A stretch of DNA of 41,942 bases, taken from IMG/VR virus record IMGVR_UViG_3300047491_001328, positions 1-41,942 of that record, one strand, 5' to 3'. The DNA comes from a virus. Positions within the stretch are counted from its first letter, which is position 1. Each line of letters starts with the position of its first letter. The notes below the pieces were generated by a model. The model was not told the DNA's origin and did not search any database. It saw only the letters and a list, made by a program, of their open reading frames with translations. Both the position numbers and the translations under genes were made by a program. Of this stretch, positions 3,485 through 35,228 are shown piece after piece.

Positions 3485-3709
3485 TTATCTATCATAGGTA
3501 CCATCTTCATTTTTCCAGCAATACATCTCAGGAAACATCTTTCTCAATTTGTATCTAGTATAAATGCCTTCCGAGCACTGAATATCAAACTCATTTTGAC
3601 AAGCAGGACACATAAAAGTATTGAAAAATAGTCCTACGTCTCCTGATTTTACAACAGAATTGGTATCAACAAAAATAATTCGATTGCATGCTCTACATGT
3701 TATTATCAT
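3485..3709 (-). CDS. Small zinc-ribbon protein
   Basis: A 74-residue protein with two CxxC knuckles (CRACNR at residue 5 and CPACQN near 34), the layout of a single zinc ribbon, followed by a basic C-terminal tail. Such proteins bind nucleic acid or partner proteins; no specific family is recognised. It has its own promoter at 3733-3749, giving a near-leaderless transcript, and lies between Ro60 and the phosphoesterases. Confidence 0.6.
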   Translation of the reverse strand: MIITCRACNRIIFVDTNSVVKSGDVGLFFNTFMCPACQNEFDIQCSEGIYTRYKLRKMFPEMYCWKNEDGTYDR

Positions 3710-3732
3710 GAGAAATGGATATAGAAAAAGTA

Positions 3733-3749
3733 GTATAAAAAGGTTTCGG
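3733..3749 (-). promoter_or_regulatory. BRE/TATA promoter for the zinc-ribbon gene
   Basis: Minus-strand CCGAAACC-TTTTTATAC, centred about 30 nt before ATG 3709, predicts a start site a few nt before the gene. Confidence 0.6.
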
Positions 3750-3764
3750 AAAAAAATAGAAAAA

Positions 3765-5345
3765 TTAGTGTTGGTTGCTCTCGATCATCGAATGAGCAAA
3801 GTTCAACACTCCAGCGGACCAACCACCCAATATATAAGTCTTATTATAAAACTCTGGTATGATTGTATCCTGATATCCAGCGACCTGCACCAAAAACACG
3901 TTAACATTTGAATTAACTTTGTTTCGATACTGCGCAATTAACTTTGGCACGTCAATATTTCGTGTACCAAACCACTGATAGTCACGATACTCGCTTGGAT
4001 CTATACCATATAGGCCCCCATGCCCCGCCTGCATATCAGAATAAACGAATACGTTATCCCAATGTTCCTTGTTACTGATTGCGTTTTTCCAAAACAACCA
4101 AATACCATTTTCAGTGGATTGCCCCACTTTGGAACCGGCCTGATCAGCATCCTTTACTTGATCGAATATTGATGCCTTCTTGCGAATAGCGGCAGTTGCC
4201 AACCTATCCCCAAACACACCAATATAACCTTCATCAGATACCTTTCCAGTAATTACCGCGCTCAGATTGGCAATCTTTGACATTCTCATGGTACCCATTG
4301 AAGATGTTGTGGTATTTCTAGCGGACCCTGAGTTATCACATAGGGACATTGTTCTGCCAGCGAATGTAGGCACGTTCTCAATGGCCTTCTCCATACATGA
4401 TTCAAGGGCATCTAAGACTGATGGCGGCGCAATCTTTTCAATTGCATTATATGCTGAAAGATACCGGAACGGCAACTGACGACCACCAGCTACCCCACCA
4501 ATTAGTTTATCCACATATAATTTTGGGTCCACTTTATGCTTAACTAGGTTGGACAAATTTCTCAATATTCCCATATGTTGCATGATGCCTACTGCTTTTG
4601 TCCAACTCTCGGTATTTGATCCTCCCTTAGAAACAATTGCTTCCCATGTATTGCCATCATTGGTAACTTCACCCTTCATGAATATATCAACTGCATCTGA
4701 TTTTGGATGAACCAATTTGATAACATCCTTGGTTTTTACAAACCTGTTTTCCAACTGATATTTCGCGAGGTAAGGAGCATCAGCTTCCTCTAACTTATCC
4801 TTCCAAAGCCTCTTTAGGGAGTTTGGTATTGGCTTTCCAAATTCACTCAATTGGTACGCTAGACCAATAGCAGGCTCGTCTAACCTCTTAACAATTCCAG
4901 CACCATAATCTCTGATAGCTCCGGTGCCCTTCAGCAACTTAGCAGCTCTTACAAGAATTACTTGAGGAGTGACTCTGATATTATCAACATGCCTCAATTG
5001 AATAGCAAGCTCCAGTGTAGCAATTGGATCGTGCTTCAAAGCTGCATCGATAGCAGATTCCATCAAAGTCTTTGGGGTCATCCCACGCCACTCGCGAGGA
5101 TCTTTAGCATCCAACGTTTTTCTCAGATGTTCTACCTGACGGTCGTCGAGCCTCGATATTGGATTAAACTTTACCTTCCTCTTATCTTCCTCATCGCGAT
5201 GGTAATACATTGGCTCACCAAAGAATGACGAAGCTGCCGCTACTTTCAATCTCAATACAGGATCATTGATGTCGTATGATCTTCCACCCATAAAGTTAAG
5301 GTGGCTTGTGTCTTCTATCTTTTTTGTCGGATTTAAGTATCCCAT
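3765..5345 (-). CDS. Ro60/Rsr (TROVE-domain) RNA-binding protein
   Basis: A 526-residue homologue of Ro60, the ring-shaped RNA-binding protein that holds Y RNAs and misfolded or damaged noncoding RNA; bacterial Rsr works with PNPase in RNA decay and rRNA maturation. The N-terminal two thirds is the helical-repeat TROVE ring (motifs such as DPREWRGMTPKTLMESAI and LTRMGP-type helices). The C-terminal third is a von Willebrand A domain whose MIDAS site is intact (LCDNSGSA near residue 340). Length matches the usual 520-540. The start MGYLNPTK is chosen by resemblance to family N-termini; an ATG four codons upstream (5357) is possible and neither has a ribosome site. Upstream lie tRNA-like genes with unusual insertions, the natural place to look for its Y RNA. 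Confidence 0.93.
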   Translation of the reverse strand: MGYLNPTKKIEDTSHLNFMGGRSYDINDPVLRLKVAAASSFFGEPMYYHRDEEDKRKVKFNPISRLDDRQVEHLRKTLDAKDPREWRGMTPKTLMESAIDAALKHDPIATLELAIQLRHVDNIRVTPQVILVRAAKLLKGTGAIRDYGAGIVKRLDEPAIGLAYQLSEFGKPIPNSLKRLWKDKLEEADAPYLAKYQLENRFVKTKDVIKLVHPKSDAVDIFMKGEVTNDGNTWEAIVSKGGSNTESWTKAVGIMQHMGILRNLSNLVKHKVDPKLYVDKLIGGVAGGRQLPFRYLSAYNAIEKIAPPSVLDALESCMEKAIENVPTFAGRTMSLCDNSGSARNTTTSSMGTMRMSKIANLSAVITGKVSDEGYIGVFGDRLATAAIRKKASIFDQVKDADQAGSKVGQSTENGIWLFWKNAISNKEHWDNVFVYSDMQAGHGGLYGIDPSEYRDYQWFGTRNIDVPKLIAQYRNKVNSNVNVFLVQVAGYQDTIIPEFYNKTYILGGWSAGVLNFAHSMIESNQH

Positions 5346-5367
5346 AATTATAACCATGAGGAGAAGA

Positions 5368-5450
5368 GTCGAGAGCGATGGTCCTTTTTAGCGAAAGATG
5401 TATTCGCTCTCTGCACTACCCCACGTTTTATCGCGGATATTTCACCGCAA
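5368..5450 (-). ncRNA. Candidate structured RNA (Y-RNA-like) between Ro60 and tRNA 1
   Basis: No gene fits here, but the minus strand is highly structured. A TTGCGG/CCGCGA hairpin (5431-5450) is followed by one copy of a repeated 27-nt element (5394-5420: GGTAGTGCAG...ATACATCTTT). Then comes an 8-bp perfect inverted repeat, GAGAGCGA/TCGCTCTC (5371-5378 with 5404-5411), which competes with a nested AGCGAA/TTCGCT hairpin. It lacks a T-arm, so it is not a tRNA. A Ro60 partner RNA, or the leader of the Ro60 message, are the two readings; both are inference. Confidence 0.4.
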
Positions 5451-5593
5451 GGCTCGGTGCCGGATTTGAACCGGCGACCTTCTGATCCTCAAGAAGTATC
5501 CGTACTCTGCAATACCACCTAATCTAGGAGGATAAACTAAATTTCGAATACGGCCTCATAATCGGACGCTCTACCAGACTGAGCTAACCGAGC
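5451..5593 (-). tRNA. tRNA-like gene 1, interrupted by about 70 nt (anticodon uncertain)
   Basis: The acceptor arms GCTCGGT (5587-5593) and ACCGAGC (5452-5458) pair perfectly; D-arm GCTC-AGTCTGGTA-GAGC and T-arm GCCGG-TTCAAAT-CCGGC are canonical. No CCA is encoded and the discriminator would be C. Between the D-arm and T-arm is a long insertion holding an 8-bp helix (CCGTATTC with GAGTACGG) and a copy of the repeated 27-nt element (5490-5516). The anticodon arm is ambiguous: either a late hairpin CTTCT-TGAGGATC-AGAAG with an 8-nt loop, or TCCGA/TCAGA (one C-A mismatch) split by the insertion. Identity is therefore not assigned. A promoter lies 25 nt upstream. Confidence 0.7.
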
Positions 5594-5613
5594 AAACATC
5601 TGTTATCTTACAA

Positions 5614-5629
5614 CTATTTAAGCATTTCG
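5614..5629 (-). promoter_or_regulatory. BRE/TATA promoter for tRNA-like gene 1
   Basis: Minus-strand CGAAATG-CTTAAATAG, centred about 25 nt before the first base of the tRNA (5593), so transcription would begin at or near the mature 5' end. It abuts the end of the preceding protein gene. Confidence 0.6.
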
Positions 5630-5631
5630 TT

Positions 5632-6117
5632 TTAACTAGGCTTTCGATGAAGAGATTTGAATTTAAATTCGTTACAATTTTTCCATGTCATGCCATTGTC
5701 ATTTGATGATGAAGGCAGAGACGTGAATCCCATTCTATGGGATTTCCAATAACTATAATCATATTCATTGGGTGCAAGGACAGATCTAATGATATCATCC
5801 ATGTCATTTGTTAGCTGGAAACATATGTCATAACTTGAGAAACCATGACATCCAGTAACATAATCAAACCCATACGATACACTCCTATTTGAATCTGATT
5901 TAGATTCTGTGACTGCCGCATCATTATTATGAATTTCAGGAATTGCACAATATCTACCAACGTGAGTTTCTAAAATCCCAGCCGTGAGAGAAAGACTAGC
6001 CGCTGCTTCGCAACTTGATTCCATTTTTCGCGCCATGATCATACGATTATTACGATTAATAATACGATCTATCGCAACTTCGAGTTCTTTAATATGTTCA
6101 TAATCCGGTGCTTTCAT
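5632..6117 (-). CDS. Unknown protein with the shared P-[ND]-Y N-terminal signature
   Basis: A 161-residue protein starting MKAPDYEHIKELEVAI. The same N-terminal signature opens three other unrelated-looking proteins in this window (starts at 15136, 15805 and 39249). The rest has a GFDYVTGCHGF segment and a low-complexity SSSND stretch and matches no family I recognise. The start at 6117 has a GAGGTT ribosome site. An upstream in-frame ATG (6204) would run through tRNA-like gene 2 and is rejected. It sits inside the RNA-gene cluster, between tRNA-like genes 1 and 2. Confidence 0.6.
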   Translation of the reverse strand: MKAPDYEHIKELEVAIDRIINRNNRMIMARKMESSCEAAASLSLTAGILETHVGRYCAIPEIHNNDAAVTESKSDSNRSVSYGFDYVTGCHGFSSYDICFQLTNDMDDIIRSVLAPNEYDYSYWKSHRMGFTSLPSSSNDNGMTWKNCNEFKFKSLHRKPS

Positions 6118-6139
6118 AACAACCTCAAATATTATAATA

Positions 6140-6270
6140 AGGAGCAGAGAGAGATTCGAACTCTCCCATTTCTTTTTTCGGCAAGAAGTAACTGTGGCAT
6201 TCACTACCGATTTGATCAGAGAATTGCTGCCACGGTGTTAGTTGCGCTGAGCCTATCGCGCTTCTGCTCC
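6140..6270 (-). tRNA. tRNA-like gene 2, interrupted by about 55 nt (anticodon uncertain)
   Basis: The acceptor GGAGCAG pairs with CTGCTCC; D-arm GCGC-GATAGGCTCA-GCGC and T-arm GAGAG-TTCGAAT-CTCTC are clear, though one extra T lies between T-arm and acceptor and U8 is absent. Alternatively a G-1:C73 pair as in tRNA-His fits the acceptor. The insertion holds a perfect 6-bp helix (GTGGCA with TGCCAC) and the repeated 27-nt element (6182-6208). The following hairpin TTCTT-GCCGAAAA-AAGAA would be the anticodon arm, again with an 8-nt loop, so identity is unclear (GCC for Gly is one reading). It could be a degenerate tRNA or a tRNA-like RNA with another role. Confidence 0.6.
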
Positions 6271-6285
6271 ACAACAAAAATTATG

Positions 6286-6402
6286 TGTCTCAAAGAGAAT
6301 AATCGCTATCAGCATCACTTAAATATATATTGTCCCTGCACCTCTACAGGGAGCGTTGTTGTATTTACCAGAAGTAGCCGATAACTTCACTGCTTAGAGA
6401 CG
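6286..6402 (-). ncRNA. Candidate structured RNA between tRNA-like genes 2 and 3
   Basis: A closing stem GTCTCTAAG (6392-6400) with CTTTGAGAC (6286-6294) has one mismatch in nine pairs. Inside are the fifth and most divergent copy of the repeated element (6368-6394, AGCAGTGAAG...CTACTTCTGG), a hairpin GAAGT/ACTTC with an 8-nt loop, and a 5-bp CCCTG/CAGGG hairpin where a tRNA would have its T-arm. An AATATATATTTAAG stretch within it could instead be a TATA box serving tRNA-like gene 2, which would argue against a continuous RNA. Function is not known. Confidence 0.3.
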
Positions 6403-6403
6403 A

Positions 6404-6541
6404 TGCCCAGATTGGGATTTGAACCCAAGTTTCCCCTTCCAAAAAGGAGTAACTGAACTATTCACTACCTACATCATTAAATGTAAGAGAATATCTAGCT
6501 CAGAAATTTTGGCGTCATGGACCTAACTAGACCATCTGGGC
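6404..6541 (-). tRNA. tRNA-Gln(TTG) with a 63-nt intron between D-arm and anticodon arm
   Basis: This is the clearest tRNA of the cluster. The acceptor GCCCAGA/TCTGGGC with discriminator A, a D-arm with 3-bp stem GTC/GAC, the anticodon arm CTCCT-TTTTGGA-AGGGG (U33, anticodon TTG), a 4-nt variable loop and T-arm TTGGG-TTCAAAT-CCCAA all fit; no CCA is encoded. The 63-nt insertion lies at about position 26/27 rather than the usual 37/38. It contains a 6-bp helix (CTGAGC with GTTCAG) and the repeated element (6443-6469). The first intron bases CCAAAA could pair with TTTTGG in the anticodon loop. No textbook bulge-helix-bulge is evident. Exact splice points are uncertain by a few nt. Confidence 0.8.
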
Positions 6542-8855: not shown

Positions 8856-11464
8856 CCCTTCTTTCTAAACATTGTAAACATGTCATCAATTGTCTTGCCC
8901 TTTGGTTCTTCCTTCTTTTTCATTGGTTGCCGTGGCCTCGCGACAGGCAAGGCCCCTGCAAAAGTAAAGACATTTCTTTCATGTTTTTTCCTTTCTCCTG
9001 TCATCATATTTATGTCTAACGCATTAAATATTCTCGCCAATGGCTTAATTATTTGCTTGGTTATATAGTAGTTGGTGTCAATAAGCCTATTGTTCTTCTT
9101 AATAAACTCAATCGTCTCTGCCCGCTCAGCAAAATCCTCTCTACCCCTAACAATGTAATAAGATATCCTATCACCGAATCCGGGAATCTGGTCCCCCCGT
9201 TTTTTCATCCTATCGATGAGTCTCATGTGTGCGGGCAGGTTCGTGTAGCCCTGCGAATCTTTATGATAGTTTCTTGTGAGGGCTAAATCATCAAGTAAAT
9301 CTGCGTCTAGATCTATGTTAAAGACCCGTAAACGAGAGATCACACCAAGGACGTATTGTGCAGCCTCAGAGGTTTTACCCTCTTTTAAGATCAAATCAAG
9401 ACACTTTCTCATGGTGTTGCCAGTGAGCCTACACCAATCCCTTCTCACAGTTTCGATTCCCTTCGCCTTAACTTTATCCTTTATTTCCCCATTTCGACCC
9501 TTCTCCAGAAGCCACATCGCATAACGTTTTTTTGCGAGGAACATTGCACGTCTTGCATACCCCTCATAGTTAAGTTTCATTGGGTATTTCATCGGCTTAG
9601 AAACTATTTCAGCTACTGTATTTCCTACTTTATCTATGTTGTCTAGAGTTATTTCTCCATCTGATGTAACTTCTACATAAGCAGAATCCGTGTCCGTATA
9701 TATAACATGAAAATTATATATGTTTTCGTTAACACGTAGATCTTTAATTCCTTCAATCGCATTTCTCACACCATCAATCGTTTGACGACCGTATGCAGTA
9801 ACCGCACTTGCGACAGTGAGGTTAAATAACCTTGATCTTTTATATCCACACCAACCGTATGCGCTGTTAATAACAATTTTGTAGGCATACTGGATACTAT
9901 CAAGGACTTGTTTTTTGTGCCCGTCTACTTCCAATTTCATTTGCTTTTTTGTCTCGATTCTCTTCTTCAAGACATCATCCAACATCTTTGGAAGTATTCC
10001 AGGGAGTATATCACTGTTAACAAATTTTCCACCATTTGGATCAACATGATATTTTCCATCAGGCACCTCTTCATCCATTATAACCGTAGTAGGACACAAA
10101 TTGTTTGAAATGACTACCGATGGGTATAGGCTCTGCATATCGGTTAATATCAGGTGATCATGAAGTCCTACCTCTGGCTGAGAAACGTAGGCCCCTTCAA
10201 ATTCTGACTCATCGTCATCATCGCCTTCAGAGAGTTGTGGCTTAAGGGCCATTACCCGATTTAAGCGGTTGTATCGCTGTAATAACATAAATTCAAGCAT
10301 TACCGACTGTCCACCAGAAACGACAGTCTGTAATAAAATCCCACTGATCTTTGATAATGCAATGTATTTTTCCAGCATCCCAAGATCAGTAAGCAGCATC
10401 ATACCCAATACGGCATCACGTCTCGAATATTTAACAAAGTCTGTGAATCTCTCGTCTTCAGCAAACCAATACTCCCTCATTTTTTTAGGTTCAACGTCGA
10501 GCTTTTCTAAATGCAGCAACTCCTTAGCGATGGTCTTCAACTTATAATTGTCAAGACTGAAGTTTTTCCTAACCATTGGCAACGTATCCACTACAGCTCT
10601 TCCTGCTATCGTAACATCAATCTTTATGCCCACATTTCTGATATACCAGTCTGAATGGTCCCGCCCAAAATCACACGCGAGCAAGTTTTTTCTCAGTCTT
10701 GTATCAATATATGGAAAGTCAAACTCGTTTATGTTAAATCCTGTAACAATGTCTGGATCATAATCAATGATTATATTTCGCATTGTTTTTAGCAATTCTT
10801 TTTCATTATTGACAGCAATAACATCTGAGCGATCACATTTTACCGGCTTCGCGATAATAACCAAATCTTTAATACCTTTATATCCCCGATTAAACGACAT
10901 ACTAACCAAGTTTATCGGATCTTTCTCAGACATAGGGAAACTTCCATCCTCCGGTGCAAGACATTCAATATCAATGCTCAATATTTTATACTCGGACTCC
11001 TCTGACTTATCCAATTTTTTTATTTCTTCTGCTCTTACCGTGCCTTTAGGAACATCAATCCAACTCATGCCGGTTATATCAGTGTCCGCTGAAAATCGAC
11101 TATTAAATAAAATATCGGCTTCATAAATATCGAGCACATAAGGATTGAATCTCAGTGTTTCGCGCATCGGTTTTACGTCTTTCGGAGACACCGCTGTAAC
11201 TTTAATCATTCTTGAAGGTTCTGATTGATACCCAATTGGTTGAAATCGAAGTACCTCTTCAAGGTATAACCCCTCGCTACTATCCATTATCCTCATAAAC
11301 ACGTCATCAAAGTGGTCTGGATGAGGGCGAACATAAAAATAGGGCTTGAATCCAACCACCGAAACTTTTTGGGATTTACCACTATCATCACATCCAAAAA
11401 TGTTTATGATTGGACTTCTATCATAATCGGATTTATAGTTTATGTCAAATACCTGCATCTTCAT
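8852..11464 (-). CDS. polB: Family B DNA polymerase with 3'-5' exonuclease
   Basis: An 870-residue replicative polymerase. The exonuclease motifs are SIDIE (Asp165/Glu167), NINEFDFPY (Asp249) and YSRRDAV (Asp350). The polymerase motifs are A TDMQSLYPS (Asp442), B NSAYGWCGYKRSR (about 533) and C YTDTDSAY (591-594), all intact, so both activities are expected. An acidic insert (SEGDDDDESE, about 412-421) precedes motif A. The last residues, KTIDDMF before the basic end, resemble a PIP box (QxxIxxFF) with Lys for Gln and Met for Phe, suggesting binding to host PCNA (inference). Length and motif order fit archaeal and archaeal-virus PolB enzymes. A cluster of small zinc-protein genes follows with 4-nt overlap. 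Confidence 0.97.
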   Translation of the reverse strand: MKMQVFDINYKSDYDRSPIINIFGCDDSGKSQKVSVVGFKPYFYVRPHPDHFDDVFMRIMDSSEGLYLEEVLRFQPIGYQSEPSRMIKVTAVSPKDVKPMRETLRFNPYVLDIYEADILFNSRFSADTDITGMSWIDVPKGTVRAEEIKKLDKSEESEYKILSIDIECLAPEDGSFPMSEKDPINLVSMSFNRGYKGIKDLVIIAKPVKCDRSDVIAVNNEKELLKTMRNIIIDYDPDIVTGFNINEFDFPYIDTRLRKNLLACDFGRDHSDWYIRNVGIKIDVTIAGRAVVDTLPMVRKNFSLDNYKLKTIAKELLHLEKLDVEPKKMREYWFAEDERFTDFVKYSRRDAVLGMMLLTDLGMLEKYIALSKISGILLQTVVSGGQSVMLEFMLLQRYNRLNRVMALKPQLSEGDDDDESEFEGAYVSQPEVGLHDHLILTDMQSLYPSVVISNNLCPTTVIMDEEVPDGKYHVDPNGGKFVNSDILPGILPKMLDDVLKKRIETKKQMKLEVDGHKKQVLDSIQYAYKIVINSAYGWCGYKRSRLFNLTVASAVTAYGRQTIDGVRNAIEGIKDLRVNENIYNFHVIYTDTDSAYVEVTSDGEITLDNIDKVGNTVAEIVSKPMKYPMKLNYEGYARRAMFLAKKRYAMWLLEKGRNGEIKDKVKAKGIETVRRDWCRLTGNTMRKCLDLILKEGKTSEAAQYVLGVISRLRVFNIDLDADLLDDLALTRNYHKDSQGYTNLPAHMRLIDRMKKRGDQIPGFGDRISYYIVRGREDFAERAETIEFIKKNNRLIDTNYYITKQIIKPLARIFNALDINMMTGERKKHERNVFTFAGALPVARPRQPMKKKEEPKGKTIDDMFTMFRKKG

Positions 11465-26023: not shown

Positions 26024-27055
26024 TTATATCTTTCGCTTTATCAAATCTTCGTTTGAAATGACTTTGAAGCTCAATCTACCTAATTCGATATCAGTAGACT
26101 CTTCGTATGACCTAACAACGATTCCTTCCATGTCGAACTCATCATTTATGGCACTTGGAAACTCAGATGCCATTTTAAGGAGCACATTTATATCTTCATC
26201 CAGGATTAAAACATCATAAATGATAGGAACAAAATCAAGACCTAACATTTCAACTAACCTGAGTGCATCCCTGAACCCAAGATACTCATTTTTCTCCAAG
26301 TCATAAACACTGTATACCCTAAAATGCTGATTTGGTAGACCGTAATTTCTTTGGATGCCTTTTCCATAGATCTCTCCTTGAATCGCGATATTCATACCAA
26401 AATGTCTTAGTTTCCCTTCTATATCCAGCACTCTAGCGATATGCCAATAAGTATTTGACTCGGTTTCTTTGAGTTCTAAATTGCGGGAGCAAACCCCGAA
26501 CTCTCCATCCTTAAGATAGTACGTAGCTGAAACCCCATCAATCTTCTCAGTCACATAGAAGACCTTGCCTTTGTGACGCTGTAATACGCCCGTGGTGCCC
26601 TGAATCCGCAGTTCATCGGTAGAAGGTATCCAAGATGGGAAATTGCCCTTAGCAAGTCCACCAAGGCATTCTGGAAGGGGTGGGTCGTATTTCACAATCC
26701 CAAGAATGTCAGTGACATCAGTCCCTACTGCAAGTTCATCGATCCCGTATTCAACGGTTAGCGGTAAAACCAACCCCTGTGAGATAATACCCCTCATTTT
26801 TTTAGTCTTGATCAAAAACCCTCTGAACCCGTTCTTATCAATATAGCAGGATTTCCTAAGAAATTCATATTCAGCAAAATCTGGTAGCACAGAATCAATT
26901 TCACAATAGACGCACTTGTCACCGGCCTTGAACTCTCCCTTTCCAACGACTACATTCCAATTAAGCACGCGCGCTACCTCTATTCTATCAGCTCCATCAA
27001 TAGGCTGAACATCACTAACTATTTGAATCGAAGCAAGTTTTCTTTTAACTATCAT
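26024..27055 (-). CDS. RNA ligase, Rnl5/DraRnl type
   Basis: A 343-residue nucleotidyltransferase-type ligase. Residues 1-120 form the N-terminal OB-like module of this family (VVVGKGEFKAGDKCVYCEID, MRGIISQGLVLPL). The catalytic domain follows: motif I EKIDGV with nucleophile Lys171, motif III GEIYGKG (227-233), motif IV DMEGIVVR (about 309-316) and motif V LSFKVIS near the end. Deinococcus DraRnl, the type enzyme, seals nicked RNA. With RtcB elsewhere in the window this virus has two chemically different RNA ligases, one for 5'-phosphate/3'-OH and one for 3'-phosphate or cyclic-phosphate ends. Ribosome site GAGG lies 8 nt upstream. Confidence 0.88.
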   Translation of the reverse strand: MIVKRKLASIQIVSDVQPIDGADRIEVARVLNWNVVVGKGEFKAGDKCVYCEIDSVLPDFAEYEFLRKSCYIDKNGFRGFLIKTKKMRGIISQGLVLPLTVEYGIDELAVGTDVTDILGIVKYDPPLPECLGGLAKGNFPSWIPSTDELRIQGTTGVLQRHKGKVFYVTEKIDGVSATYYLKDGEFGVCSRNLELKETESNTYWHIARVLDIEGKLRHFGMNIAIQGEIYGKGIQRNYGLPNQHFRVYSVYDLEKNEYLGFRDALRLVEMLGLDFVPIIYDVLILDEDINVLLKMASEFPSAINDEFDMEGIVVRSYEESTDIELGRLSFKVISNEDLIKRKI

Positions 27056-30187: not shown

Positions 30188-30582
30188 TCTTTTCCCCACC
30201 TTTCAACAACAAATGGCATAAAGATACTTGGCCTTCCTGATGTATATTCGTATACGCCGCGATCAAAAGAGCACGAAAACCCATCATCCTCCTCTTCTGG
30301 CGAACGGATATCATCGTTTAAAGCAAATGCTAACAACGTAAGAGCCGCCCACGATTTCTTTTCAAAGTCAACTTCATAGGCTTTGTGTTCATCACAATAG
30401 TAGATAAGACCGTCTTTTTCAAGCTCTTTGATATACTTTCTTACGGTTTTTCTTGAGCAAGAACACAATTGCCCAATGAACCCAATATCGATTTTCTGGG
30501 AGGGATCAGCCATCAATTCCTCGACAATTCTGGCTTTCACAGTGTTGCCAAAAATATTGGCAAATGGTGCCAATTTACTCAC
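30184..30582 (-). CDS. Winged-helix transcriptional regulator
   Basis: A 132-residue protein with a winged helix-turn-helix at the N-terminus: ARIVEELMADPSQKIDIGFI, recognition helix SCSRKTVRKYIKELEKDGLI and wing YYCDEHKAYEVD, typical of archaeal ArsR/MarR-like regulators. The C-terminal half (RPSIFMPFV) is small and unassigned. It follows the CCA enzyme gene with 4-nt overlap and may control viral or host promoters; targets unknown. Confidence 0.65.
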   Translation of the reverse strand: MSKLAPFANIFGNTVKARIVEELMADPSQKIDIGFIGQLCSCSRKTVRKYIKELEKDGLIYYCDEHKAYEVDFEKKSWAALTLLAFALNDDIRSPEEEDDGFSCSFDRGVYEYTSGRPSIFMPFVVERWGKE

Positions 30583-31934
30583 TCATCCACCTCATCCATG
30601 ACCCACTTTCCTGCCTCTTTTCGCAGCCCATCGAGTACATTCTTAAGGAAGATTTTGGCACCATCTACATCAGTAAATTCATCATCAAGTTGTGCCTTGT
30701 AAACCCTCTTAAGTACTTTTCCAAATACTTCACCGGGTTTGATGTCGGGACGCATCTCGATAATATCCCTTCCAAATATGAACGGATCAACTTCGTTCTT
30801 GATATCTTCAAAGGTCTTAATTACTTTAGCAAGGTGTTCCTCATCTTCTTTAAGTCCTTCAGGATCAAGGCCCCGACTAAATTTATCGGCCCTGTACATG
30901 TCAACAATTTTGTAGACATCAACTTTAGATGCAAGCCTTTTTACCCGCGCCCTCGTAACGTTTCCATTGTAGAGCTTCATGTGGTTGCCCACGATTTTGA
31001 CAACCTCATCTATGATCTCTGCATTATTGGTCAGCCTAAGAGGGAAAGCCTCCTTAATGATATCAACAGAGATCATTTCATGTCTCTTTGTACCGTACAG
31101 CTTGCCTACATCATGCCACATCCTAGCAAGCTGCTCAACCAGTGTCCTCTGGCCAACAGGAGACCAATCGATTGTCTTTCGCCAATGGTTTCCAACGTTG
31201 CCTTCTGGATGGAACTTCGGGTTTTGCTCGACGGAATCCAGTACCCAAAGCTCAGGAAGCAGAAGCTCCATGACTCTGAGATGATCCATAACAGAGAAGC
31301 CATAGGAAGGCTTCGGAGAGTCCATAAGAACCGCGCTAACCTCACCAAACACCCTTTCAATAGGAAGGTTCTTTACATCCATCCGGTTCCTCTGGATGGC
31401 CTGTACGGTCTTATGGCTTATGATAAGATTATCCCTCGCGGCAAACTTGGCAGCTCTGATAAATCTAAGTGGATCTTCCACAAATGTCTTTTCGTCGATC
31501 ATCCTGACCATATTATCCCTGATGTCTTGTATGCCACCAAAGAAATCAAGAACATCACCAGTGAGCACATTTATCATGATCGCATTTCTGGTAAAGTCTC
31601 TTCTCCTCGCGGCGACTTCTGGTTCAAGGAACGGATCTGAATCTACCTCTATTGAAGTGTGGCTTCTGCCTGTTGATTTTTCCTTCCTCGGAATTGCAAC
31701 ATCGAGGTCGTCAATCTTGAACACACCAAAGGATTCCCCAACGAGAACAACCTTTTTACCAAATCCCTTAAGAAGATCCCGAAGTTCCTCCGGCCAAAGA
31801 CCGTATACCTCGATATCGATATCCTTATTGGACTTTCCCATTATTTTATCACGGGCAAACCCACCCGTAAAGTATGAACTACCGCCCACCTTATCAACTT
31901 CAGCGGCAATCTTTCTTGCAAGTTCTACACTCAT
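30579..31934 (-). CDS. cca: CCA-adding enzyme (class II tRNA nucleotidyltransferase) with HD domain
   Basis: A 451-residue protein of the bacterial class II type. Features: GGFARD (24-29), DIDIEVYG with the catalytic carboxylates, RRDFTRNAI (nucleotide selection), FVEDPLRFIRAAKFAARDN (the DPLR/R-AAR motif) and, from about residue 215, an HD domain (WHDVGKLYG, and GNHMKLYNG). It adds or repairs CCA on tRNA 3' ends; the HD part often removes 2',3'-cyclic phosphate. The virus tRNAs here lack encoded CCA, so it can serve them too. Archaea normally use class I enzymes, so this is of bacterial type. It overlaps the regulator gene downstream. Confidence 0.9.
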   Translation of the reverse strand: MSVELARKIAAEVDKVGGSSYFTGGFARDKIMGKSNKDIDIEVYGLWPEELRDLLKGFGKKVVLVGESFGVFKIDDLDVAIPRKEKSTGRSHTSIEVDSDPFLEPEVAARRRDFTRNAIMINVLTGDVLDFFGGIQDIRDNMVRMIDEKTFVEDPLRFIRAAKFAARDNLIISHKTVQAIQRNRMDVKNLPIERVFGEVSAVLMDSPKPSYGFSVMDHLRVMELLLPELWVLDSVEQNPKFHPEGNVGNHWRKTIDWSPVGQRTLVEQLARMWHDVGKLYGTKRHEMISVDIIKEAFPLRLTNNAEIIDEVVKIVGNHMKLYNGNVTRARVKRLASKVDVYKIVDMYRADKFSRGLDPEGLKEDEEHLAKVIKTFEDIKNEVDPFIFGRDIIEMRPDIKPGEVFGKVLKRVYKAQLDDEFTDVDGAKIFLKNVLDGLRKEAGKWVMDEVDE

Positions 31935-32423: not shown

Positions 32424-32714
32424 CTACTCCCGCATATCCATGATCAACATTCCGCAATCAGTACAAGTAAATTTGCCACCGGAACGCTCTATATGATTAT
32501 GCTTGCAGTGTTGTTGTTGATACTTCTTTTGGCGCTGAGTATATGACAACTTGCAACACTCTAGGCAAGTATCTTCCTCCTCACTAAAAGAGAGACCGCT
32601 GTGCTCACTGCATACCTCTTTACCACAATAATCACATTTATGGTAGTGTTTGATTTTTTTACCGCAAATATCACAATAATATACATCCTGTTCAACAAGT
32701 TCTTTCTTCTTCAT
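32424..32714 (-). CDS. Multi-zinc-finger protein (96 aa)
   Basis: MKKKELVEQDVYYCDICGKK, then CDYCGKEVCSEH, CLECC, CKHNHIERSGGKFTC and TDCGMLI: at least six cysteine/histidine clusters predicting two or three zinc ions. The start at 32714 lies 6 nt after a perfect GGAGG. It resembles the zinc-protein family at 7377-8483 and may bind RNA or proteins. Function unknown. Confidence 0.6.
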   Translation of the reverse strand: MKKKELVEQDVYYCDICGKKIKHYHKCDYCGKEVCSEHSGLSFSEEEDTCLECCKLSYTQRQKKYQQQHCKHNHIERSGGKFTCTDCGMLIMDMRE

Positions 32715-32818: not shown

Positions 32819-33994
32819 TCATCCCTTGATTACTGCTATCGGTTCCAATCTCACGATCTTCTTTACCAAGTCTGCCTGATTCTCCATTACTTCCTCAATA
32901 TCCTTGTAAGCTCCTGGAGCTTCATCCAACTTCGCGACGGACTTCATTCCATGAACAATCCCCTTTTCATCGAGAATTGCCATCTGCTCATCAAGGCTCA
33001 GCTTCCTCTTTGCCTCATTTCTCCCCATCTTGCGCCCGCTACCATGAGAACAAGACTGGAAAGACTGCGGATTTCCACGACCCTCTACAATATACGAAGC
33101 AGTCCCCTGCGAACCAGGGATGATGCCCATCTGATCCTTCTTTGCGGAGGTAGCACCCTTCCTGTGGATGTACACGGACTTTCCATCGATATGGTCCCAC
33201 TCTGCATAATTGTGATGAATGTCATGCTCCCAAACAAATTCAACATCAGGCACCATCTCACGGAAGATGTTTTGAATCCTGAGCATCATGAACTGTCTAT
33301 TTGCCTTCGCGAATGCCAAACAATATTGCATCTCCTTCTTGTACTTAAATCCAAGACTCTCTACATCACCAATGCTGGTCATAGGCAGAAAGTCCAGCTC
33401 CCACGCCTTTGGGATTGGATTATCAGACTCCTCGGTATACTTCCTCGCGATGGTCTGATAGTGGTCAGCAACCTTCTTTCCTATATTCCGGCTTCCGGAA
33501 TGGACCATTATCCAAATATCACCTAAAGAACTCTTCTGAAGCTCTATAAAGTGATTCCCACCGCCCAAGGTGCCTATCTGATGACACGCGGAATCATATT
33601 CCTTCTCGACAACTTCAAGCTCACCCTTGGGCCTCTCAGGCATCATCAAGGGGAAAGCATCCTTGTTGTGATTATGTCCAACTGGAATGGTCTCCTGTAT
33701 CTTTTCCACTATCTTGATAATGGTCGAAACATCAAGCTCCCTCAGATTAGTGCGTACCGCGCGCATCCCACATCCAATATCGACACCTACAGCATTGGGG
33801 ATAATTACACCCTTAGTGGCAATTACCCCACCAATAGGCATCCCGTAGCCCGAATGGCAGTCCGGCATCAGGGCAACGTGATTAACAGTAAAAGGATGTA
33901 AGGCTAGATTCATGGCCTGCGCCTCAGCCCCATCCTCAATATAAGACGCCCAAGAATATATGGGCAGCTTTCCAGTTTCCTTAATCTTCATCAT
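32819..33994 (-). CDS. rtcB: RtcB RNA ligase
   Basis: A 391-residue RtcB, which seals RNA with 2',3'-cyclic or 3' phosphate to 5'-OH ends using GTP and Mn2+; in archaea it completes tRNA splicing. Key motifs: MPDCHSGYGMPIGGVIA, DIGCGMRAVR (metal ligand Cys), GTLGGGNHFIEL, MVHSGSRNIG, HNYAE, VYIHRKGATSA, IIPGSQGTASYIV and the guanylylated His in SCSHGSGRKMGR (about residue 315). It is shorter than archaeal tRNA-splicing RtcB (about 480), closer to bacterial and phage forms. Here it can rejoin RNAs cut by anticodon nucleases or after the introns in the viral tRNAs are removed. Start 33994 is preceded by GAGGA. Confidence 0.95.
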   Translation of the reverse strand: MMKIKETGKLPIYSWASYIEDGAEAQAMNLALHPFTVNHVALMPDCHSGYGMPIGGVIATKGVIIPNAVGVDIGCGMRAVRTNLRELDVSTIIKIVEKIQETIPVGHNHNKDAFPLMMPERPKGELEVVEKEYDSACHQIGTLGGGNHFIELQKSSLGDIWIMVHSGSRNIGKKVADHYQTIARKYTEESDNPIPKAWELDFLPMTSIGDVESLGFKYKKEMQYCLAFAKANRQFMMLRIQNIFREMVPDVEFVWEHDIHHNYAEWDHIDGKSVYIHRKGATSAKKDQMGIIPGSQGTASYIVEGRGNPQSFQSCSHGSGRKMGRNEAKRKLSLDEQMAILDEKGIVHGMKSVAKLDEAPGAYKDIEEVMENQADLVKKIVRLEPIAVIKG

Positions 33995-33999
33995 ATTTT

Positions 34000-34245
34000 T
34001 CACTCCTCAATTATAATACCATGTTCCTTCGCAAGTTCTATTCCAGCATCAGTGAACTCAACAAACATCTCTTTGTTGTGTTGAAATGTGGTAATCAATC
34101 CCTTCTTTTTTAAGTCAGTGAGATTTCCCCGACCTTCCTTTGATCCTCTGACATTTCCATCAACTAAAGGTGTTCCGGCCCAATTTTCGGCATCCTCAGC
34201 ATACGCCAAGAACAATCTCAAAGACTGCTCAGATAGGTATAACAT
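34000..34245 (-). CDS. Small winged-helix-like protein (81 aa)
   Basis: MLYLSEQSLRLFLAYAEDAE... followed by a segment GRGNLTDLKKKGLITTFQHN and an end VEFTDAGIELAKEHGI, the pattern of a small winged-helix domain (DLKKKGLI as recognition or packing helix, then the wing). It heads the RtcB transcript from a TATA box (34268-34276) with leaderless spacing. A regulator of the RNA-repair operon is plausible (inference). Confidence 0.55.
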   Translation of the reverse strand: MLYLSEQSLRLFLAYAEDAENWAGTPLVDGNVRGSKEGRGNLTDLKKKGLITTFQHNKEMFVEFTDAGIELAKEHGIIIEE

Positions 34246-34610: not shown

Positions 34611-35228
34611 TCACCTATTTAACCTAAGATTGTACATGAACTCATAGAACGGTTCTGGGTTTGGTTTTTCAGGCAACATACTCGACTCATACGCTTGATC
34701 CAGCAAATACATCTTTTTGGTAAGTGCTTCCTCATCGACCCAATCAGGTGTACGATTAAATGCAACAGTACCAAACGTGAGAAGGTCGCACCCGAAATTA
34801 GCAGTTCTCCAAGCGGACCGTATTCCCTTTATGCCAAGGCCCCTCTTGGTGGCATCCTTCCACTGCGAAGTAGCCATCCCCTTGATTGAATGATATGTAC
34901 ACTTAGCTACATTCTCACGAACGATGACATCCAACACTCGATGTTCGGGGCATGTCCATAGTACTTTTGGACTGCATACCGCCCAAATAGCATTCTGATT
35001 GCCTTTCAGAAGCTGGCCAACAAGGTGCCCCACTTCCCAATATGTTGTTTCGACATCGCGTACTGCGATTATACTCTTTGTCTGTGGTCTTGTCTTATCA
35101 TATGGCCTTCCTTCCAAAATTGTCTTTGTAGGAACCACATAGACCTCCGAAATATCAAGATCCGACGTGGGTTTCTCATCTCCCCACATATGAGACCCTG
35201 TGACCGTTCTACACAATATCTTTTCCAT
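34611..35228 (-). CDS. RNA-repair-associated nucleotidyltransferase (YcgL/COG3541 type)
   Basis: A 205-residue protein of the polymerase-beta-like fold: VTGSHMWGDEKPTSDLDISE gives the GS-x-WG...SDxD metal site, followed by the family helices DVETTYWEVGHLVGQLLKGN and YHSIKGMATSQWK. COG3541 proteins are annotated as 'RNA repair pathway DNA polymerase beta family' because of recurrent linkage to RtcB, as here (RtcB begins 620 nt downstream). Probably adds nucleotides to or modifies damaged RNA ends. A TATA-like CTATTTAAC (35252-35260) lies about 28 nt upstream. Confidence 0.75.
   Translation of the reverse strand: MEKILCRTVTGSHMWGDEKPTSDLDISEVYVVPTKTILEGRPYDKTRPQTKSIIAVRDVETTYWEVGHLVGQLLKGNQNAIWAVCSPKVLWTCPEHRVLDVIVRENVAKCTYHSIKGMATSQWKDATKRGLGIKGIRSAWRTANFGCDLLTFGTVAFNRTPDWVDEEALTKKMYLLDQAYESSMLPEKPNPEPFYEFMYNLRLNR

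Follow-up and report, generated by a model that had tools for sequence, protein, structure and literature searches.

What RNAs does a virus encode beside its gene for Ro60, and what are the tRNA-shaped genes among them? We examined these questions in 41,942 nucleotides (nt) of viral DNA (IMG/VR record IMGVR_UViG_3300047491_001328, positions 1 to 41,942; hereafter the window), in which an earlier note had pointed to a 27-nt element occurring five times next to the Ro60 gene and had proposed that it is a module resembling Y RNAs, the partner RNAs of Ro60, carried inside tRNA precursors. We conclude with high confidence that the window encodes Ro60 together with five Y RNAs: two in the standard order and three hybrids (t1, t2 and t3) that are inside-out counterparts of the bacterial Y RNA YrlA, with a capped Ro stem and a free acceptor end. 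The architecture is based on sequence, homology and covariation, and the coordinates of all features are collected in Table 1.

Checking the window positions directly, we found all five copies of the element on the minus strand, where the earlier note had placed them. They follow a gap-free consensus overall, but the copy in t1 is the weakest, with a front that reads GGTATTGCA. The pattern RGYAGTGMA-N9-TACWYCT, with at most two mismatches, matches the window six times (mean in shuffles 0.38, maximum 2): four copies are exact, the copy in t1 has one mismatch (5492-5516), and the sixth match, on the plus strand, has two (3617-3641). A second pattern, AGTGA..TACTTC, has one chance match in the window (9991-10015). 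All five element-bearing RNAs are encoded on the minus strand, in the 1.2 kb upstream of the Ro60 gene. The variable middle of the element is one strand of a helix; the partner strand precedes it in the three tRNA-like genes and follows it in the other two RNAs. The proposal of a Y-RNA module within tRNA-shaped genes and alongside Ro60 genes is borne out. Simple base shuffles paired equally well in 75, 49, 67, 36 and 56 of 2000 trials, and the pairing evidence is therefore modest for each copy alone. That the element is a recently duplicated spacer or repeat, common to tandem tRNA genes and without RNA function, is scarcely credible: the copies do cluster within 1.1 kb, but the variable middle differs in every copy and co-varies with its partner strand, and the design is kept across viruses and bacteria.

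GGUAGUG, at the front of the element, is also a sequence of animal Y RNAs. This likeness looks fortuitous, as the same strand reads GAAGCGG in relatives and CGAATGC in some myxobacterial arrays. Comparison with the Rfam Y RNA models gave no animal Y RNA match in the window at E values up to 10, and Rfam searches of the whole window and of the tRNA region returned tRNA and weak chance matches and no Y RNA.

The three hybrids are 131-143 nt long. In each, the acceptor stem is fully Watson-Crick (7/7), D and T arms are present (T stem 5/5), and the parts stand in tRNA order. The D arm is followed by a closed hairpin, in which a short loop joins the Ro 3′ strand to the Ro 5′ strand (the element), and the hairpin is followed by an anticodon-like arm. 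The earlier note had the element ending where the anticodon arm begins; by reading, its TACTTC end instead overlaps the 5′ strand of the anticodon-like stem. In t3 that arm is CUCCU-UUUUGGA-AGGGG and the Ro helix is 8/8. In t2 the Ro helix is closed by CUGAU-CAA-AUCGG, and either an extra base stands between T stem and acceptor or the acceptor is shifted by one. The lower helix of t1 is ambiguous, the folded model differing from the homology alignment, and the two-helix stem is least regular there. None of the three genes encodes a CCA. The Rfam tRNA model (cut-off 29) scores t1 at 49.2 bits with a 73-nt loop insertion and t3 at 20.9 bits, and does not match t2; only t1 passes the tRNA cut-off. 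Between t1 and t2 lies a 190-codon open reading frame (5632-6204, minus strand) without a Pfam match, whose GTG start would fall within t2 and whose true start may be further in.

The four bacterial loci that are closest by Ro60 each show the order hybrid, standard Y RNA, Ro60. These are L092 (a metagenome-assembled genome, MAG, of Polyangia), L093 (a MAG), L094 (Nannocystis pusilla DSM 53165; hybrid at 3667-3797, standard Y RNA at 3805-3880, Ro60 directly after them) and L095 (Paraliomyxa miuraensis). A model built from these four bacterial hybrids alone (R1; three from Myxococcota) finds t1 (52.1 bits, E 1.4e-9), t3 (41.3 bits) and t2 (34.7 bits, at 6141-6269), as well as hybrids in Halogranum tailed virus 1 (HGTV-1; 56.4 bits) and in locus L088 (48.3 bits). 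When nine hybrids were aligned to R1, 92.2% of the cells were paired and 21 of 26 pairs had changed on both sides, in an alignment fitted to the tested structure, which favours that structure; none of 500 shuffles was as high on any measure, and slid structures reached at most 50.5% paired. A second model (R2) was built from the nine hybrids, including t1-t3, L088 and HGTV-1, and scores its own training members t3 and t2 at 85.3 and 84.8 bits. In a 20-row R2 alignment, 94.6% of cells are paired (87.1% and 86.0% for the Ro helices alone) and 23 of 26 pairs show double changes. The motif TAC[TA][TC]C is present in 17 of the 20 rows; L095 has TTCCTTC and L088 has CATTTCATC. No similar sequence is seen in L132:1297-1424, which is possibly a different kind of RNA. 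This RNA, from the record of L070, is tRNA-like with a long insertion and a GGTAGAAC/GTTCTACC stem, lacks UACUUC and is not clearly a Y RNA.

Among 50 viral Ro60 records, six have R2 matches of at least 120 nt and 52 bits: those of the window's virus, L088 and HGTV-1, which were in training, and those of L070, L054 and L045, which were not. Two further records have matches of 134-136 nt at 42-46 bits, one of them a candidate (G239) and the other the false match in L043 discussed below (G203); R2 matches of ordinary tRNA length reach 48.9 bits in viral records. A hand-made regular expression for the permuted order, applied to 58 loci, gave by reading only t2 and t3 of the window; it under-detects, since it missed the copies that R1 and R2 find in L037 and L088. 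A blastn search of the RNA region against phages gave no match. In HGTV-1, the model match coincides exactly with an annotated gene, tRNA-Asp (gtc) + Intron (NC_021328.1 70440-70571; L037:845-976). This gene has the same hybrid design as t1-t3 and stands about 3 kb from a gene annotated as TROVE, the domain of Ro60. It differs in its name, which makes it an intron-bearing tRNA; neither TROVE nor Y RNA turned up when the main text of PMC8651126 was searched for these words. Judged by the hybrid model, the gene is likely a Y RNA of the permuted kind.

YrlA is reportedly a tRNA-mimicking bacterial Y RNA, treated by Chen et al. (2013 and 2014) and by Wang et al. (2018). The literature already describes both this mimicry and the occurrence of YrlA in phages. 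Like t1-t3, YrlA (RF02553) is encoded beside Ro60 and combines a Ro-type stem with a body that has D, T and acceptor arms. It differs in its closure: the consulted part of PMC8394870 has the ends of the RNA pairing in the large stem that holds Ro60, whereas the sequences of t1-t3 show the opposite closure. YrlA-order RNAs in three related loci (L041, L043 and L039) have the same parts as the hybrids, with the Ro stem open and the 7/7 acceptor capped by ACGTCAGT, CTTCGG or ACTCCAT. Hybrids and YrlA-order RNAs agree in the circular order of their parts and in how far the Ro strand is from the T stem: the Ro 5′ strand lies 32, 34 and 32 nt from the T stem in t1, t2 and t3 and 31 nt in L094, compared with 33, 32 and 31 nt in the YrlA-order RNAs. 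The D stem lies 18, 14 and 13 nt from the Ro 3′ strand in t1-t3 and 20 nt in L094, compared with 14, 15 and 12 nt. The helix segments were picked by hand, as a test of the proposed structure and not a blind prediction, and a few fit less well (T 5/6 in HGTV-1, Ro 5/6 in L088 and T 4/5 in the record of L045). Because the same parts occur in the same circular order with different cut points, t1-t3 are circular permutations of YrlA.

Circularly permuted tRNA genes exist in algae and archaea, and are alike in the rotated order of their tRNA parts. They yield a normal tRNA, however, whereas the window holds a permuted Y RNA that resembles a tRNA gene. The permuted order could have arisen from two YrlA genes in tandem, as L043:3664-3797 illustrates: a false R2 match there starts with the acceptor and D strands of one Y RNA and ends in its neighbour.

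The two remaining copies of the element, which the earlier note had assigned to RNA without a tRNA, lie in standard-order Y RNAs; no tRNA-like body is seen in either, in 6286-6401 by reading. We characterized this class with a covariance model (R3) of 30 short standard Y RNAs from 24 Ro60 loci and L132, with no window sequence among them. The 30 were taken from 45 script-listed candidates, the other 15 being longer, near-copies or, in one case, false. The R3 alignment has two helices around an internal loop, with 82.0% of cells paired and a covariation of 0.834 compared with 0.238 when shuffled; for double-side changes and extra pair types, 438 and 60 of 500 shuffles, respectively, reached the same level, which is no clear excess. 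With E up to 0.01, R3 matches 89 places in 53 of 63 sources, 24 of which had given training rows, and every place is on the Ro60 strand. The ten matchless sources are L003, L035, L037, L042, L047, L064, L068, L084, L085 and L091, several of them truncated upstream. With filters off, the two standard-order RNAs are the two best R3 matches in the window. Two bases separate the end of t3 (6404) from the first modelled base (6401) of the Y RNA at 6286-6401. The next match (32497-32571, plus strand; 14 bits, E 0.2) lies far from Ro60, has GCAGTG and ATACTTC and is perhaps due to chance.

The stem of these Y RNAs consists of two helices with an internal loop, mostly UAGUGAA on the 5′ strand and ending in UUCUC on the 3′ strand, with UUACUUC or a near variant on top. 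The 133-kb contig of L004 contains AGTGA..TACTTC five times, all on one strand and in the roughly 620 bp that precede the Ro60 start, while the backwards control of this pattern matches once. One of these RNAs matches the Rfam YrlA model at 34 bits, which is less than the gathering score (69); E was 9.2e-6 when 451 bases were searched and 6.6e-4 for 32 kb. Across 60 loci, a looser expression gave 47 forward matches, compared with 1 on the opposite strand and 4 for its backwards control; among the 47, the window's virus and L004 are counted twice (L002/L038 and L004/L048) and some are likely chance matches. Distant relatives, including Bacillus phage G, have GAAGCGG or GATGCGG on the 5′ strand, (U)UACUUC at the top of the stem and UCUC at the end of the 3′ strand. 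Compared with the short bacterial and phage Y RNAs that have no tRNA body, the window's two standard-order RNAs have the same stem, also beside Ro60, and do not differ in kind. Two variants were observed elsewhere. Upstream of Ro60 in L054, L055, L067, L073-L078 and L080, the script found Y RNAs with apical regions of about 150-190 nt beside short ones, and L046:3720-3900 holds a tandem pair of nearly identical short Y RNAs with strands GATGTGGAC..GGATACTTC.

Does the hybrid design travel with Ro60 in bacteria? The earlier note had held that the same element in genomes without Ro60 would speak against its proposal. We scanned 192 genomes of the class to which the Nannocystis genome belongs with R2 (E up to 1e-8). 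A TROVE match is present in 49 of them (47 over the cut-off) and an R2 match in 20, and TROVE was found in 19 of these 20 hybrid-bearing genomes (hypergeometric 4e-12), or in 16 of 17 when the three that gave training rows are set aside. All 10 genomes whose R2 matches carry TAC[TA][TC]C (11 of 21 places) have TROVE, and at 19 of the 21 places the same contig has a TROVE match no more than 7 kb away. By the criterion of the earlier note, this outcome favours its proposal. In G186, the R2 match is near a contig end and TROVE is on other contigs. L113 contains five consecutive R2 matches with 5-7 nt between neighbours and a CGAATGC..ACTACATC strand in several. On a Ro60 tree, the hybrid trait needs six changes, at least four of them forced by well-supported branches, so that it was probably gained or lost several times; the tree contains very long branches for L037 and L035 and a stop-filled translation for L100, and absence of the trait in fragments is unsure.

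Two kinds of surroundings were seen. Tandem arrays beside TROVE, with four or five R2 matches each, occur at L113:1345-2233, L115:872-1820, L116:1341-2109, L117 and L107; they hold several CGAATGC..ACTACATC strands and no tRNA according to ARAGORN. In L108-L112, L114, L118 and L120, the R2 matches stand in or near myxobacterial tRNA arrays, the loop is GGGCCG..GGTTATCG in several, and TROVE lies within about 3.3 kb in seven of the eight; these are perhaps a second Y class.

Several observations weigh against the assignment of t1-t3, and of the myxobacterial matches, to permuted Y RNAs tied to Ro60. Ordinary tRNAs score with R1 as well, reaching 44.6 bits when the insert is deleted, and for this reason its score alone does not separate t2 and t3 from tRNAs. 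The window scores of R2 are not independent because the window hybrids were in its training, and R2 produced the false match at L043:3664-3797 (42.3 bits, 134 nt), which consists of two adjacent standard-order RNAs. No Rfam YrlA match was found in the window at E up to 10. Single-sequence folding gives no strong support, except for t3 and the RNA upstream of Ro60 (z-scores -1.8 for t1, -2.0 for t2, -4.4 for t3, -3.0 for 5350-5455 and 0.1 for 6330-6412, the last excised too short). Among the myxobacteria, G070 has an R2 match and no TROVE match, the match lying close to the end of an 11.7-kb contig. Nine of the 21 places have a divergent loop and no TAC[TA][TC]C, so that only the overall design is common, as checked by reading in one of them (L110); a tenth place without the motif, L104, has the Paraliomyxa variant TTCCTTC. 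The scan scored 17 candidates per genome under strict filters, and a matchless genome may still carry the design. Finally, when introns are allowed, ARAGORN models t1 and t3 as tRNAs with an intron, in one piece of the window only (L001: tRNA-Ile(tat) with a 53-nt intron and tRNA-Arg(tct) with a 55-nt intron); it called nothing on L002, which covers the same stretch.

The ARAGORN result leads to the question of whether these are ordinary intron-bearing tRNA genes, spliced at archaeal bulge-helix-bulge sites and ligated by RtcB, with the Y-like hairpin as an intron-borne RNA or a leftover. The virus does encode an RtcB-family ligase, the HGTV-1 copy carries an intron annotation, and by reading there are 7-nt loops with U33 in t3 (UUUUGGA), L093 (CUUAUAA) and L132 (CUUCUAA). 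In t1, UCCGA upstream and UCAGA downstream could form pairs at all positions but one, and an early reading of t1 as an intron-bearing tRNA with bulge-helix-bulge borders was dropped once relatives showed YrlA-order RNAs. We nevertheless consider splicing very unlikely. The conserved (U/A)UACUUC and the 5′ strand of the anticodon-like stem overlap, so that clean excision would cut either the conserved element or the stem. The same design is present in myxobacteria, and we know of no bulge-helix-bulge endonuclease from bacteria. At other loci, stand-alone RNAs in YrlA order are made of the same parts, and no ordinary tRNA was found in the virus's 70.6-kb contig, which is possibly a fragment.

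Alternatively, the hybrids could be functional, chargeable tRNAs with a permanent Ro60-binding hairpin, which would account for their 7/7 acceptor stems, their D and T arms, the plausible anticodon loops read in several of them, and the design matches that stand within ordinary tRNA arrays in some myxobacteria. This appears quite unlikely, because by reading the anticodon-like arms are regular in t3, L093 and L132 but irregular in t1, t2, L094 and L095, which also argues against splicing. In addition, t1 would read Leu(GAG), yet has no long variable arm, and a helix inserted between positions 26 and 27 probably hinders the ribosome. Permuted Y RNAs remain our preferred reading, and the term tRNA precursors, used earlier, does not fit them: the body has the form of a tRNA but most likely remains attached to the Y module, as in YrlA.

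What might permuted Y RNAs do? We tentatively put forward, as a possibility, that the hybrids are Ro60-tethered tRNA mimics in RNA repair or in defence against tRNA nucleases, and not introns. They would most likely be co-transcribed with their neighbours, their acceptor end may be trimmed by tRNA-processing enzymes, and Ro60 may be bound at the closed stem. The two-base gap between t3 and the next Y RNA and the short spacers of the myxobacterial arrays fit tRNA-type cutting. Tethered mimics could then bring tRNA-handling enzymes or nucleases to Ro60, such as the host PNPase or the viral RtcB, ligase and CCA-adding-like enzyme, or could instead serve as decoys for anticodon nucleases.

We favour this role because of precedents in Deinococcus and Salmonella and because of the RNA-repair enzymes of the window's virus and HGTV-1. 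According to the consulted parts of PMC8394870 and PMC7790460, a Y RNA links Ro60 to PNPase in Deinococcus, and a Salmonella operon contains rsr, Y RNAs and rtcBA, with YrlA suggested as a competitive inhibitor of an anticodon nuclease. The consulted part of PMC8651126 reports tRNAs, RNA ligases, a CCA-adding enzyme and RtcB for HGTV-1. The companion genes in the window suggest a putative link of the viral Ro60 to tRNA handling. A more specific role, which we regard as rather unlikely, is that of CCA-tailed, working tRNA-like bait, where the pieces left after cutting by a host anticodon nuclease would be held by Ro60 for RtcB, the ATP RNA ligase and the CCA-adding enzyme. If true, this would be a self-repairing tRNA decoy of viruses and myxobacteria.

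For the Ro60 start we chose the second ATG, at which MGYLNP lines up with MGTINK in the relative L004; the protein has no NCBIfam match. Its relatives comprise 55 viral-contig loci (including the window's virus), 74 GenBank phage records (best about 40% identity) and 9 bacterial loci; the nearest are viral contigs without a stated host and Myxococcota. The best GenBank matches of the DNA polymerase include haloarchaeal tailed viruses (about 24% identity) and a Vibrio phage (26%). The 70.6-kb contig of the same virus is 99.99% identical to the window over the 11,357 bases compared.

Table 1. Positions of the Y RNAs, element copies, Ro60 gene and companion genes in the window
Feature	Positions	Strand	Description
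Hybrid t3	6404..6541	-	Acceptor GCCCAGA/TCTGGGC, D arm, closed Ro-type hairpin, T arm, A73
Element copy in t3	6443..6469	-	5′ strand of Ro-type stem, ends TTACTCC; TAGTTCAG pairs with CTGAGCTA upstream
Standard-order Y RNA	6286..6401	-	Lower helix GUCUC/GAGAC; upper helix GTTATCGGC/GCTGATAGC; R3 27.3 bits, E 6.6e-5
Element copy in standard-order Y RNA 6286-6401	6368..6394	-	Pattern scan, model R3
Hybrid t2	6140..6270	-	Acceptor GGAGCAG/CTGCTCC, D stem GCGC/GCGC, Ro helix GTGGCA/TGCCAC, T arm
Element copy in t2	6182..6208	-	Pattern scan, pairing shuffles
Hybrid t1	5451..5593	-	Acceptor GCTCGGT/ACCGAGC, canonical D arm, Ro helix CCGTATTC/GAGTACGG, T arm
Element copy in t1	5490..5516	-	GGTATTGCA...ATACTTC, most divergent of the five
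Standard-order Y RNA directly upstream of Ro60	5352..5427	-	Upper helix GAGAGCGA/TCGCTCTC, lower helix CGUGGGG/CCUCAUG; R3 24.9 bits, E 2.8e-4
Element copy in standard-order Y RNA 5352-5427	5394..5420	-	Pattern scan, model R3
Ro60 (TROVE)	3765..5345	-	Pfam TROVE E 7.5e-8; PDB TROVE proteins 9l5y and 9kop, E ~5e-25
DRB0094-type ATP RNA ligase	26024..27055	-	TIGR02306 above cut-off; Pfam RNA_ligase; companion
CCA-adding/poly(A) polymerase-like nucleotidyltransferase	30579..31934	-	Pfam PolyA_pol; NCBIfam CCA and PcnB models all below cut-off
RtcB-family RNA ligase	32819..34003	-	Pfam RtcB E 5.4e-108; under NCBIfam cut-offs; companion, putative role with the RNAs
RlaP-family (RNA repair pathway) nucleotidyltransferase	34611..35228	-	Pfam RlaP E 1.6e-8; no NCBIfam match

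YrlA and phage Y RNAs were already known, and the permuted form is new as far as a limited check of the literature goes: neither that form, nor its myxobacterial arrays, nor the new reading of the HGTV-1 gene was found in the literature searched, which did not extend to Chen et al. 2014. The finding shows how YrlA, a tRNA mimic of rotated order, relates to tRNA, as both rotations occur, in related loci and in separate lineages. Ro60 RNAs are thereby linked to tRNA arrays and probably to tRNA processing. The annotated tRNA with intron of a haloarchaeal virus likely receives a new reading, and tRNA finders overlook or misname the hybrid genes: ARAGORN in bacterial mode reported no tRNA in the window or the four bacterial training loci, and it assigned part of one viral hybrid (L132) to tRNA-Arg. 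Myxobacterial chromosomes, with tandem arrays in one group, provide a setting in which the function of these RNAs may be tested.

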